This document shows, piece after piece, positions 27,106 to 32,831 of a stretch of DNA of 64,000 bases. The notes beneath the pieces are model-generated. The model was not told the origin of the DNA, ran no database searches, and saw only the letters and a program-made list of their open reading frames with translations. Each line of letters opens with the position of its first letter. Position 1 is the stretch's first letter. A program made the translations under genes and the position numbers. This DNA comes from an uncultured Opitutales bacterium. GTDB taxonomy: Bacteria > Verrucomicrobiota > Verrucomicrobiia > Opitutales > Intestinicryptomonadaceae. Location: NCBI GenBank assembly GCA_944389315.1, contig CALXLX010000001.1, positions 1 to 64,000 of the forward strand, in the 5' to 3' direction.

Positions 27106-27381
27106 TTAGTCCACAGCTTCGGCCTTTACGTCTATGGTAAGATCCAGCTTATCCACGGAGACTTTCACGGACTTCATCAGCTTGTTGATGGCCGCCTCTT
27201 CCATGCCTTTTTTAGCAAGCTCCGCCCTTATGTAAAGATCGGCCATTTTATCCTGCCTATTCTTTGCAAAGATAGTCTCGAAGAATTTTGTAAGATCTAT
27301 GCGGCGGACGGCAGAGGCCGCCTTTGCGGTTTTCTTTGCGGGTGCCGACGCGCTTTTCTTGGTGGTTGTTTTTGTCTTCAT
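27106..27381 (-). CDS. Small protein with basic, histone-like N-terminal tail
   Basis: I start at the ATG at 27381 (91 residues). The first ~25 residues are Lys/Ala/Thr/Ser-rich (MKTKTTTKKSASAPAKKTAK), like histone H1 or HU tails, and a compact helical part follows (RRIDLTKFFETIFAKNRQDKM...). A nucleic-acid-binding role is plausible but unproven; no family recognised. A near-consensus promoter ends only 7 bases before the ATG, and no ribosome-binding site is present, suggesting a leaderless mRNA. It follows uvrC by 62 bases on the same strand. Confidence 0.7.
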   Translation of the reverse strand: MKTKTTTKKSASAPAKKTAKAASAVRRIDLTKFFETIFAKNRQDKMADLYIRAELAKKGMEEAAINKLMKSVKVSVDKLDLTIDVKAEAVD

Positions 27382-27388
27382 GAATAAG

Positions 27389-27417
27389 ATTATCGCACTA
27401 AAGCGGAGACAAGTCAA
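27389..27417 (-). promoter_or_regulatory. Promoter of the small basic protein
   Basis: TTGACT (27417-27412), exactly 17 bases, then GATAAT (27394-27389): five of six matches in each box. The ATG is at 27381, so transcription would begin at or within a base or two of the start codon. Confidence 0.7.
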
Positions 27418-27443: not shown

Positions 27444-29981
27444 TCAATGGCTTCCGATAAGAAGGGGCGAATGGTGTTTTGAAGAAAGGGTGGTCTTTGA
27501 AATTTTCTCCCCGTGCGCGTCGGTAAGCAGCGGGCAATGGAAGAACTTTGGAACGGGCAAAGCCAAGGCCCTGTAAAGGAGAATCTGGCGCGCGGTGCTT
27601 ACAAGCAAATCCGCCCCGCGGACAACCTCCGTTATTTTCATGGCCGCATCGTCGACAACCACGGCAAGCTCGTAGGAGGCGCAGCCCTCGTTGCGCCATA
27701 CGAGAAAGTCTCCGAAATCCCTTCCCGCGACAAGGCTTATTTGCCCGTAATGGCCGTCCGCAAAGCTTATGCGCTCTCCGTCGGGAACCTTGAAGCGCCA
27801 CTTGCGCGACTTGTCGAAAGGCGCGGAGGAATAGTCCGCCGCATCGCGCAAAGACGGGGGGAATACCCTTTCGGGCTCCACGCAGTTTTCAAGTTCAGGT
27901 ACGGGAAATTTTATGTCGGGCAGCAGGCCTTCCGCGCGTATGCGGCTGCGGGAGACGTCGCACGGATATATGAGGTTTTGAGCCTTGAGGGTTTCTATCG
28001 CATCAAGATAAAGCCCTGTGCGCTCGCTTTGCCTGTATGGGCCGAAATCTCCACCCACGTCTGGGCCCTCGTCCCACGACAGGCCTATGCCTTTCAAGTC
28101 TTTTAGGGCGGCGTCCTCATAAATTTTAGGGCAGCGGGGGAGGTCCAAATCCTCAACGCGAAGCACGAGCTTCCCCCCCGCAAGCTTCGCCCGCCGCGCG
28201 GCAATCCCAAAAGTGCGGGCATGGCCTATGTGAAGAAACCCCGAAGTGGTGGGGGCTATTCTGCCCCTGTATGAGGCGTCCTTCTCCACCCCCTCCGAAA
28301 GCGCGCCAATCTCCGAGGAAAAATCCTTTAAACTCTTGGAGGCGATAGAATCCTGCGGGACGGAGGATATCTCCCCAAAAGCCGCCCCGCCGCCAAGGGC
28401 ATTATCCGCGCCTCCGCCAGAAACGGCAGGAGCTGCAGAGCCTACGCCGCCGCAGGAACTGGCTTCCCCGCCTTCAGAAAAAGCCGAGCCCCCCTCTCCC
28501 AAAGAGCCGAAATTCTTGTCCAAAAACGCCCTAAGCGCGCAGGCCGTCTGGGGGCCTATGCCGTCAACCTGCGCGAGCTCCTCGGCGCTTGCGCTCTTTA
28601 CGCGGGCTATGCCGCCAAAATATTTTAATATGGCCTCCTTGCGCTTTGCGCCAAGCTTGGGGAAATCGTCGAGTATGCTCTCCCTTATCTTCTTGCTGCG
28701 CAGCTCCTCGGAAAAGGAGTTCGCAAAACGGTGCGCCTCGTCCCTGACGCGCTGAAAGAGCTTTAAGCCCTCGTCTGTGCGCGGAAGAAGCACGGGGGTT
28801 GCGTCCTCAAGGATTATGGTCTCCTCCTTCTTGGCAAGCCCCACGACCCTCTTTGGAGTTATGCCCGCCCCCGCAAAAGCTTCGAGGGCAAAACGCACCT
28901 GCTGGGCGCCGCCGTCTATCAGGACTATGTCCGGCATCTCGACGCCCTCGCGCGCAAGACGGGTATAGCGGCGCATGACAACCTCGTTCATGGCCTTAAA
29001 GTCGTTATTGCCAACAAAGCTCTTTATCTTGAAGCGGCGGTACTTTCTCTTGGCGCTCTCGCCGTCCTCAAACCTGACCATGGACGCCACGCAGAAAGAC
29101 CCGGATATGTGGGATATGTCGAAGCACTCTATCGACCTTGGCGGGGAGGGAAGCTTCAAAACTTCCGCGAGGCGCGCGCAGGCCTCCGCGGCGCGCTGCT
29201 TCGGGGTTTTGGTTATGTCGGCGCGGACGTCGCGCGTCTTGTTCATGCTTAGAGTCTCGCGCATGGCGTAGGCCAGATCCCGCAGCTTTGCGGCCTTCTC
29301 GTACTCCATGGCCGCGCTCGCGGCGGCCATCTTTAGCTCGGTCTGCTCGAGTATCTCGGCGTTCTTGCCGCCCAAAAACTCAAGGGCGGCGTCAACACGG
29401 GCGCGGTACTGCTCCTGGGTGGTCTCGTTGGGATGGGAGTATATCTCGCTACGGGCGTCGTCGTACAGTCGCCACCTGCCGTCGTCGAGTAGCTTGGGGT
29501 GGGCGTCGGAAAGCAGTATCCCGAAGCGCCTCTTAAGCTCCGCAAGAGTTGCGCGAACATACGAGCCGGAAAGGTACGGCCCGAAATACACGCTTCTGTC
29601 CTCCTTGCGCTGACGCGCAAACGTAAAGCGCGGAAGCGGCTCGAAAGTGGTCACGCGCAGAAGCAAAAAGCGCTTGTCGTCCTTCTGAATGGTGTTGTAG
29701 CGGGGCTTCCACTGCTTGATAAGCTTGTCCTCGAGAATGAAGGCCTCGGCGTCCGACTTGGTTGTGATATATTCGAAGTCGGCAATGAGCTTTACCATGG
29801 AGGCTATCTTTGCGTTGTAGCGCTTCGCATGTATGAAGTATTGGGAAACCCTGCGCTTTAATGATATTGCCTTGCCAATGTATATCACCTGCCCGAAGGC
29901 GTCCTTCATGATGTAAACGCCGCTCGAATTGGGAAGGGCCCTTACCTTGGCCTTCAGGTTTATGCCGCCGTCTTCGGACAT
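27444..29981 (-). CDS. uvrC: UvrC excinuclease fused to a glutamyl-Q-tRNA(Asp) synthetase-like domain
   Basis: Residues 1-490 are a complete UvrC. They comprise the GIY-YIG nuclease (GVYIMKD, VIYIGKA, about 20-100), a UVR motif (about 215-245), the RNase H-like nuclease (FDISH 287-291, LIDGGAQQ 354-361, RDEAHRF 413-419) and a helix-hairpin-helix (about 440-490). A Gly/Ser/Ala-rich linker (about 491-570) leads into a class-I synthetase domain (571-845). This domain has GRIAPTTSGFLHIGHA (HIGH 584-587), RVEDLDLPR, ELAVVVDDAAMKITEVVRGADLL and KISKT (826-830), which match GluQ. Two of the three zinc Cys of E. coli GluQ are missing, and only ~15 residues follow KISK instead of ~60. It starts directly after mutS. 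Confidence 0.9.
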   Translation of the reverse strand: MSEDGGINLKAKVRALPNSSGVYIMKDAFGQVIYIGKAISLKRRVSQYFIHAKRYNAKIASMVKLIADFEYITTKSDAEAFILEDKLIKQWKPRYNTIQKDDKRFLLLRVTTFEPLPRFTFARQRKEDRSVYFGPYLSGSYVRATLAELKRRFGILLSDAHPKLLDDGRWRLYDDARSEIYSHPNETTQEQYRARVDAALEFLGGKNAEILEQTELKMAAASAAMEYEKAAKLRDLAYAMRETLSMNKTRDVRADITKTPKQRAAEACARLAEVLKLPSPPRSIECFDISHISGSFCVASMVRFEDGESAKRKYRRFKIKSFVGNNDFKAMNEVVMRRYTRLAREGVEMPDIVLIDGGAQQVRFALEAFAGAGITPKRVVGLAKKEETIILEDATPVLLPRTDEGLKLFQRVRDEAHRFANSFSEELRSKKIRESILDDFPKLGAKRKEAILKYFGGIARVKSASAEELAQVDGIGPQTACALRAFLDKNFGSLGEGGSAFSEGGEASSCGGVGSAAPAVSGGGADNALGGGAAFGEISSVPQDSIASKSLKDFSSEIGALSEGVEKDASYRGRIAPTTSGFLHIGHARTFGIAARRAKLAGGKLVLRVEDLDLPRCPKIYEDAALKDLKGIGLSWDEGPDVGGDFGPYRQSERTGLYLDAIETLKAQNLIYPCDVSRSRIRAEGLLPDIKFPVPELENCVEPERVFPPSLRDAADYSSAPFDKSRKWRFKVPDGERISFADGHYGQISLVAGRDFGDFLVWRNEGCASYELAVVVDDAAMKITEVVRGADLLVSTARQILLYRALALPVPKFFHCPLLTDAHGEKISKTTLSSKHHSPLLIGSH

Positions 29982-32564
29982 TTAAAACAATGACATCTGG
30001 TTGCCGGGCTTGTCCTGCTCTATCCGCCTTGCGGGCTGGCGCCGCGCGCGCGGAGTCGCGGAGAACTTCTGCCCGTCGAGATTCTTTACGACTATGCTGC
30101 CCTCGGTTTCAAGCTCGGAGAGAATTTGCTTTGCCCTGTCTATGACGCCCTGCGGGAGCCCCGCCAGGCGCGCGACCTGTATTCCGTAGGATTTGTCGGC
30201 CGCGCCGCGCTCTATGGTTCTTACAAAGATGATTTCGTCGTTCCACTCCTTCACGGAGACCCTGTAATTTACAACCCTGGGCAAAATTTTCTCCAGCTGG
30301 GTAATCTCGTGGTAATGCGTGGCAAAAAACGTCTTGGGCCCGCGCGGCCCTGTGCCGTGCAGATGCTCGACTATCGCCCAGGCTATGCTCAGGCCGTCGT
30401 AAGTGCTCGTGCCGCGGCCTATCTCGTCGAGTATTATCAGGGATTTGTCCGTGGCGTTGTTCAAGATGTTGGCCGTCTCGTTCATTTCGACCATGAAGGT
30501 TGAGTTGCCCTTAGACAGCTCGTCGCTGGCGCCCACCCTGCTGAATATCCTGTCCACAAGCCCCATGGAGCAATGCTTTGCCGGCACGAAACACCCCGTC
30601 TGCGCCATTATGCATATCAGGGCTATCTGCCTTATGTAGGTGGATTTCCCCGCCATATTCGGCCCGGTAATCAGGGCTATCTGCTCGTCGGAAGACGATA
30701 TGTACGCGTCGTTGGGCACGAAGGACTGCGTCCCCGCAAGCCCAAGTTTGTCTAGCCGCAACATCTGCTCGACCTCGGGATGCCGCCCCTCGCTAATCTC
30801 TATGGAGTCGCTTTCGTCTATCTTCGGGCGGCAATAGTCCCACTCGCGGGAAAGCTCTGCCCAGCCGCCCATTACGTCGAGCCGCGCCAAAATCTGGGAA
30901 CAGCGGGCCAGGGCCTCGGCGCTCTTTAAAACCTCGTCGACCACGCAGCCGAAAAGGAACTCTTCTCGAGCCAAAGCCCTGTCCTGCGAATGGAGTATGT
31001 CCCTCTCCTTCTGCCGCAGCTGTTCTGTCGTAAAACGCTCGGCGTTTGTCATGGTCTGGCGGCGTATGTAGTCGGACGGAACCAGCCCCAGGTTGGACTT
31101 CGTCACCTCGATGAAATATCCGAACGCCCCGTTGTACTTTATCCTTAAATTCTTTATGCCCGTACGCGCTATCTCCGCGGCCTCAAGCTCGGAGAGCCAG
31201 GAGAGATTGTCCCGCCCGAGGCGGCGCAAAGAGTCGAGCTCCTCGTCAAAGCCGTCGCGTATGGCGCCGCCGTCCTGAATCTTAGAAGGAAGCTCGTCGG
31301 CCAAAGCCCGCTTAAGATACCCGATAAGCCCGGAGAAATCCTCGAAACTCCCCGCCAAAGCCCGGCAGGAATCCGCCCCCGCCTGCAGGAGAGCCTCTTT
31401 TATGGGCCCGAACTGCTCGGCGCTTTGCAATATTGCGGCAAGCTCGCGCGGGTTTTTAAGGTTGTTCTGCAGCCTTCCCAATATGCGGGGAATGTCGCGC
31501 ACCTTGGAGAGCAGCTCGGAAATTTGCGCGCACTGAGTCGGACAGGAGTACAGCTCCCAGACAAGATCCTGGCGGGATTTTATCTCGCCCAAGTCCAGGC
31601 TCGGCGCCGCAAGAAAACTCTCGAGCATGCGCGAGCCCATGGGGGTGCGCGTCCTGTTCATGACATCGAACAGGCTTCCCCGCACCCCGCCGCCCGACGC
31701 CCTGAAAATCTCGAGATTGCGCTGCGTCGCGGGGTCTATGAGCATGCAGTCCGCGGTTGAAAACTTCTTCAAGATGCGCAAATTTGCGGGAGCGCGCCTG
31801 AGATTTTCCGTGACGTAAAAACATATGGCCCCCGCCGCCCCGAGCGCGGGGAAATCTGACTCTATGCCGAACCCGTCGAGGCTGAGCACCTTAAGGCTCT
31901 GCCGTACCGTATTGGCTCCGTACGCCACGTCAAAATGGTAGTCCGGCAGCAGGGTTACGGGCTTTAAGTCTATTATATTCCGAAATATCGCATTCCATGC
32001 GGCCAAAGAGGAATCCGTCTTCCATACGGCGCTGGATTCCTCCGGCAAAAGTATCTCCTTTGGGTCGCAGGAACTGAGCACGGGGAGGAAATCCTCCGGA
32101 TTGTCGAAGGCGGCGCAGAGAAACTCGCCGGCGGACAAGTCCATCCACGCGGCGCTCAGTTTGCGCTCTCGGGAGATATCCACAGCCATTATGTAGTGGC
32201 GGGACGCGCCGTCCATCTGGTTTTCCTCGAGCGTTGTGCCGCTGCTTATTATGCGGCTTATGGACCTCTTTACAAGCTTGCCGGCAACGGGGGTTTCGTC
32301 CTGGTCGCAGACGGCAACCTTCTTGCCCGCCGCCAAAAGCTTGGGTATATACTGCCACGCCGCATGGTACGGAACCCCCGCCATGGGGTAATTCTGGCGT
32401 TTTGTAAGAGTGATTCCCAAGATGCGCGCGCCCTCGACGGCGTCGTCGTAGAACATCTCGTAGAAATCCCCAAGCCTGAACATCAAAAGCGTGTCCGGCG
32501 GAAGCGACGAGCGCATCTGCCAGTACTGCTTCATCATGGGGGTCTGCTCTTCTTTTTTCGCCAT
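29982..32564 (-). CDS. mutS: DNA mismatch repair protein MutS
   Basis: MutS recognises mispairs and starts mismatch repair. I use the ATG at 32564 (MAKKEEQTPMMKQYWQ), giving 860 residues; the 20 codons upstream are not family sequence. The mismatch-wedge motif lies in RLGDFYEMFYDDA near the N-terminus. The clamp and core follow, then the ATPase domain with GPNMAGKST (about 625-633), the Walker B LIILDEIGRGTSTYDG and the ATHYHEI switch. The C-terminus ends in a short NQMSLF-type beta-clamp-binding peptide. It lies immediately upstream of the uvrC fusion, whose ATG abuts the mutS stop, so the two repair genes form an operon. Confidence 0.96.
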   Translation of the reverse strand: MAKKEEQTPMMKQYWQMRSSLPPDTLLMFRLGDFYEMFYDDAVEGARILGITLTKRQNYPMAGVPYHAAWQYIPKLLAAGKKVAVCDQDETPVAGKLVKRSISRIISSGTTLEENQMDGASRHYIMAVDISRERKLSAAWMDLSAGEFLCAAFDNPEDFLPVLSSCDPKEILLPEESSAVWKTDSSLAAWNAIFRNIIDLKPVTLLPDYHFDVAYGANTVRQSLKVLSLDGFGIESDFPALGAAGAICFYVTENLRRAPANLRILKKFSTADCMLIDPATQRNLEIFRASGGGVRGSLFDVMNRTRTPMGSRMLESFLAAPSLDLGEIKSRQDLVWELYSCPTQCAQISELLSKVRDIPRILGRLQNNLKNPRELAAILQSAEQFGPIKEALLQAGADSCRALAGSFEDFSGLIGYLKRALADELPSKIQDGGAIRDGFDEELDSLRRLGRDNLSWLSELEAAEIARTGIKNLRIKYNGAFGYFIEVTKSNLGLVPSDYIRRQTMTNAERFTTEQLRQKERDILHSQDRALAREEFLFGCVVDEVLKSAEALARCSQILARLDVMGGWAELSREWDYCRPKIDESDSIEISEGRHPEVEQMLRLDKLGLAGTQSFVPNDAYISSSDEQIALITGPNMAGKSTYIRQIALICIMAQTGCFVPAKHCSMGLVDRIFSRVGASDELSKGNSTFMVEMNETANILNNATDKSLIILDEIGRGTSTYDGLSIAWAIVEHLHGTGPRGPKTFFATHYHEITQLEKILPRVVNYRVSVKEWNDEIIFVRTIERGAADKSYGIQVARLAGLPQGVIDRAKQILSELETEGSIVVKNLDGQKFSATPRARRQPARRIEQDKPGNQMSLF

Positions 32565-32831
32565 GAAAACAAATTTATTTTTTCGAACCCTACTAATATG
32601 AATCGCCCGAAAAAATGCAAACACAGATTCCCTCCAAAATCTGCCTTTTTAGAGGCGGACTAAGCAAGAGGCGGCTCTACGCCCGCAGCCTACCCCCCAT
32701 TCCCCGGCCTCCCTATTTGGCGATTTGCCGCCGAAGCGCCGCATCTCCCAGAAAAATCCCGCCCCGCACACCCGCCTAAATGGCGGATGCGGTTTATTTT
32801 AGTGTTGAAAAAAAACGGCAAAAAACCATAG

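Follow-up and report, generated by a model that had tools for sequence, protein, structure and literature searches.

The locus described here raises the question of why a DNA-repair nuclease and a tRNA-modifying enzyme should be encoded by a single gene, and whether each half remains the enzyme that it resembles. In the window (the whole 64,000-nucleotide stretch of DNA that was analysed, from an uncultured Opitutales bacterium) a frame on the minus strand runs uninterrupted from 29981 to 27444, encoding 845 amino acids and ending in a TGA stop codon. Residues 1-492 (28506..29981, minus strand) form a UvrC part, residues 493-570 (28272..28505, minus strand) a linker, and residues 571-845 (27447..28271, minus strand) a GluQRS-type class I synthetase core, of which the core proper occupies residues 571-829 and is followed by a short tail. 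Pfam models for GIY-YIG, UVR, UvrC_RNaseH and HHH_2 match within residues 1-490, and tRNA-synt_1c matches residues 572-833 with 131 bits. The original prediction of one in-frame UvrC and GluQRS-type reading frame, made without naming the strand, is borne out, and the HIGH motif (584-587) and KISK (826-829) lie where it had placed them.

The fusion gene is real and under selection

The assembly is a draft of 54 contigs, and a stop codon between two real genes might conceivably have been lost through an assembly or sequencing error. We regard this as extremely unlikely, given that an independent assembly of a sister species (G001, contig CALXQW010000041.1) contains an identical 845-codon frame with zero indels, and that further fusions occur in two other genomes. 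A stop or frameshift concealed in the linker, which had been raised earlier as a possible objection to the fusion, is contradicted by this indel-free frame of equal length. Between the two species, the GluQ part of which is 88% identical, dN is 0.031, 0.50 and 0.068 and dS is 0.95, 1.30 and 1.27 for the UvrC part, the linker and the GluQ part, respectively (dN/dS of 0.03, 0.39 and 0.05); the low ratios at either end and the higher ratio between them indicate that selection holds both enzymes while the linker drifts. A search of the genome returned neither a second uvrC nor a second gluQ, leaving the fusion as its only UvrC and its only GluQ.

The synthetase domain is of the GluQ type

The core of the C-terminal domain is of the class I GluRS type and carries HIGH-like and KxSK motifs; an anticodon-binding domain is absent, and the chain ends 16 residues past KISK. 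The best score against an NCBIfam GluQRS model is 212 bits (cut-off 256), with only 166 bits for gltX_bact, and none of the cut-offs of the three closest GluQRS models (250-277 bits) is reached. Stand-alone relatives and the outgroup Verrucomicrobiota GluQs that were tested also score under these cut-offs. Scores this low are therefore not special to the fusion, and the models seem uncalibrated for Verrucomicrobiota. An AlphaFold2 model of the domain (pLDDT 94) superposes on E. coli GluQRS (4a91) with a Z score of 24.8 and 2.5 A over 237 residues, and also on 1nzj; since Z scores of 23-27 are obtained with GluRS and GluQRS alike, the fold alone does not decide identity. What decides for GluQ rather than GluRS is placement in the tree, where the domain falls inside a Verrucomicrobiota GluQ clade (98/98) that E. 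coli GluQ joins on a long branch (88/92), with GltX apart.

The position at which GluRS has a Thr contacting the amino acid and A76 is occupied in GluQRS by Ile, Leu or Val (PMC3542578). It is Leu in the fusion (RVEDLD) and Ile or Leu in all 53 homologues aligned, and the genome's own GltX reads RIEDTD. That the domain might be the housekeeping GluRS or GlnRS was considered and rejected: it lacks both the anticodon-binding domain and the Thr of RIEDTD, while the true GltX is encoded on another contig (C24) and GlnS likewise elsewhere in the genome. As a side observation, this GltX (L002) appears to be without the zinc-binding insert (pZBD); pZBD-deleted GluRS has been associated with the presence of GlnRS or of a second GluRS (PMC4381286), and the co-occurrence of this GltX with a separate GlnRS fits that pattern.

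Loss of the zinc site is a family trait

The GluQ part had been called degenerate in the original prediction on account of a missing zinc site and a shortened tail. Those two features are as described, with only one of the three zinc-site Cys retained and the tail as short as given above. The inference drawn from them is not supported. The motif CxCx11-28Yx3C is absent from the fusion and from all 17 members of its family, and present in 22 of the 53 homologues; CxC...Yx3C occurs in Limisphaerales- and Acidobacteria-labelled relatives and is missing in most Opitutales. The GluQs of the family, stand-alone proteins for the most part, thus share the loss of the zinc ligands and the short tail, and among 61 published GluQRS the motif is present in 46 and absent in 15 (PMC4381286). 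Work with GluRS chimeras also found that zinc was not essential in those proteins (PMC4381286). Two further variations at this end of the protein were noted: among the matches listed (L061-L140), most Verrucomicrobiota and Acidobacteria-labelled GluQs have RLAKR in place of KLSK, and the GluQs of the fusion's family have K(I/L)SK followed by another kind of short tail, in many cases with LIRN at its end.

It had also been proposed that the domain serves a new substrate or acts as a nucleic-acid-binding module. In its strongest form, the GluQ part would have lost charging or switched substrate and would now serve UvrC as such a module, and the missing zinc ligands, the short tail and the scores below curated GluQRS cut-offs could be read in that way. 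Such a repurposed or dead GluQ is nevertheless very unlikely, and we reject it on family-shared features, active-site conservation and selection: the same losses are seen in stand-alone GluQs of the family and the zinc motif is dispensed with in about a quarter of the published set cited above; across the 53 homologues the activation-site Arg, Tyr and Asp vary little or not at all, and the GluQ-type Leu is kept; the domain evolves under strong purifying constraint (dN/dS as given above); and the genome has queuosine genes and no other gluQ.

These genes are QueF, Tgt, QueA and QueG, as a check suggested by the original prediction revealed. Given their presence, queuosine should be made and the substrate Q-tRNA(Asp) should exist, and by analogy with the known activity of GluQRS this domain would glutamylate queuosine on tRNA(Asp). 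Among the 18 genomes searchable within G000-G018, the last step of queuosine synthesis is represented by QueG in this genome and six relatives and by QueH in the other 11, with no overlap. One further genome of the family (G008, a single contig rated 95% complete) gave no match to UvrC, Tgt, QueA, QueG, QueH or QueF, perhaps because the assembly is rich in frameshifts; having no match to any family sought, it is uninformative.

The UvrC part

The N-terminal part passes the UvrC model TIGR00194 (378.9 bits, cut-off 285.5) and has GIY-YIG, UVR, RNase H-like and HhH domains in order. Both nuclease sites are conserved across the aligned UvrCs, the first as GVY/YIG with its Arg, Glu and Asn, and the second as FDISH, IDGG and DEAH. 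Compared with E. coli UvrC, it has none of the four Cys in the Cys-rich segment that follows GIY-YIG, and the stretch separating the UVR motif from the RNase H-like domain is shorter by ~100 residues. The loss of the four Cys is common to 18 of 18 aligned Opitutales relatives, and Mycoplasma offers known examples of UvrC with no Cys-rich domain (PMC1564403), so this segment is not universal in UvrC.

Probable origin of the fusion in a conserved operon

Immediately upstream lies mutS (29982..32624, minus strand), whose stop codon abuts the uvrC start (TAA-ATG), such that mutS-uvrC-gluQ reads as one operon. This operon is conserved in the family: it is present in all 15 genomes, from two genera, in which uvrC and gluQ were both found on one contig, and the two genes are adjacent in each. 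They are separate genes in 11 of these, with ends that overlap or nearly touch, and fused in four. Homologues that always have the two parts apart had been named earlier as what would refute the fusion; most relatives do have separate, neighbouring genes, and four have them fused. Outside the family, uvrC was not found next to gluQ within the flanks examined at the other 73 of the best 80 named GluQ loci. Downstream of the fusion there is a small basic open reading frame (27106-27417, minus strand; 103 aa from a TTG or 91 aa from an ATG at 27381) that is 75% identical in the sister species and has no Pfam match.

In the unfused arrangement the first codon of gluQ mostly lies 4-17 nt short of the uvrC end (ATGA-type overlaps and similar). 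In so tightly packed an operon, a missing stop codon at the end of uvrC, or a small indel, would have been enough to join the frames. Both halves look intact, and an ordinary operon fusion is the most likely explanation; we consider it probable that the gene encodes a bifunctional protein derived from two neighbours in the conserved mutS-uvrC-gluQ operon.

The four fusions belong to two lineages with different junctions: this species and its sister (G000 and G001) have the ~80-residue linker, and G009 and G007 have almost none (in G009, FLDANFGEKQ-RYRGRIAP). On a tree of UvrC and GluQ together the fused state needs two changes, and in the GluQ tree G007 and G009 group with the unfused G006 (99/94). 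Two independent joins are therefore favoured, though not proven; the alternative is that the genes were fused once in a common ancestor and split again later, and the AU test does not reject a tree with all fused forms in one clade (p = 0.29). Surveys of 177 genomes of the order and 388 of the phylum revealed no further fusions among the matches listed. A candidate 783-aa fusion in G011 was rejected as two genes, UvrC stopping there with TAA. The long frames around UvrC in other genomes of the order (G105, G094, G082, G172 and G031) are not fusions either; in the high-GC genomes among these the extra length is just open frame ahead of the UvrC start, and the frame in G172 is only 495 aa long.

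One polypeptide or two

The linker had been described as ~80 residues rich in Gly and Ser. The length stands, and the composition holds for this species only, the sister-species linker being 42% identical and lower in Gly and Ser. Residues 495-545 are predicted to be disordered, with a helix at 551-562, and the full-length AlphaFold2 model consists of two well-folded blocks with a disordered stretch between them and no fixed arrangement (pTM 0.44).

A long disordered linker could be cleaved after translation, or GluQ could in addition be made from an internal start, leaving functionally two proteins. The linker holds no ATG, but a GTG at residue 565 is preceded in this species by a GGAGG-like run, and a TTG at residue 494 is present in both species. 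The GTG is absent from the sister species, however, and the TTG lacks any ribosome-site-like sequence, so that the two species share no start codon in the linker that has a convincing ribosome site. The fusions of G007 and G009, moreover, have almost no linker at all. A two-product gene appears unlikely on this evidence, and the bifunctional protein remains our preferred reading.

Are repair and tRNA modification coupled?

In that bifunctional protein, the N-terminal part, as the only UvrC of the cell, would act together with UvrAB to make both incisions of nucleotide excision repair, and the C-terminal part, as its only GluQRS, would sit on a flexible tether, activate Glu with ATP and load it onto queuosine-34 of tRNA(Asp). 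The two activities may well proceed independently on one chain. The join was probably near-neutral, its effect being to fix a 1:1 output of two proteins that would already have been co-expressed, though sequence comparison cannot separate a near-neutral join from adaptive coupling.

It is tempting to speculate that the join was instead selected for coupling, for example by making queuosine glutamylation responsive to DNA damage or to the abundance or location of UvrC. The pair is conserved as neighbours and has been joined in two lineages, and a connection between queuosine and UV survival has been published for Vibrio cholerae tgt mutants, in which cells without Tgt survive UV better (PMC11703503). 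That effect, however, was explained by the codon bias of repair genes rather than by contact between GluQ and UvrC; most relatives manage without the join; and the linker is disordered and fast-evolving, and the two parts are not predicted to touch in any fixed way. We therefore think selection for coupling improbable. Less probable still is a direct physical coupling of nucleotide excision repair to Q-glutamylation of tRNA(Asp), in which engagement or abundance of UvrC would set GluQ activity, or the reverse. Were it true, it would tie the way gut Opitutales decode Asp codons directly to DNA damage, and a link between repair and tRNA modification is testable, though unlikely.

Comparison with known systems

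The fusion is genuine and its two enzymes are well known. We found no description of a UvrC fused to GluQ in the open-access full text searched, and both the UvrC-GluQRS domain architecture and the conserved mutS-uvrC-gluQ operon are apparently undescribed and have so far been seen only in one Opitutales family. Within that family, overlapping genes, linkerless fusions and long-linker fusions form a natural series that should be useful for understanding how operons become fusion proteins, and the GluQ part offers a case of GluQRS maintained without the zinc site and the long tail.

The synthetase domain is 33% identical to E. coli GluQRS (YadB, the product of gluQ; PDB 1nzj and 4a91), and the two are alike in the catalytic core, the HIGH and KxSK motifs, the Glu site and the Ile or Leu in place of the GluRS Thr. 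Unlike the E. coli enzyme, it lies behind UvrC, lacks CxC...Yx3C, has only the 16-residue tail, and carries a GPDxGG insert, as do some published GluQRS. E. coli UvrC, similarly, shares the GIY-YIG, UVR, RNase H-like and HhH domains and the catalytic residues, but bears no C-terminal enzyme. A UvrC-family nuclease in one chain with a second enzyme has a precedent in the Cho/UvrC-type nuclease-exonuclease fusions (NF005906 and related; PMC1564403), although the partner there is an N-terminal 3' exonuclease of repair and here a C-terminal tRNA-modifying enzyme. A parallel in gene order is the dksA-gluQ operon of gammaproteobacteria (PMC3542578), E. coli included, in which gluQ likewise lies directly downstream of, and is read from the promoter of, another gene; in that operon the partner is dksA, a terminator lies between the genes and the proteins are separate, whereas here gluQ overlaps or is fused to uvrC and is accompanied by mutS.
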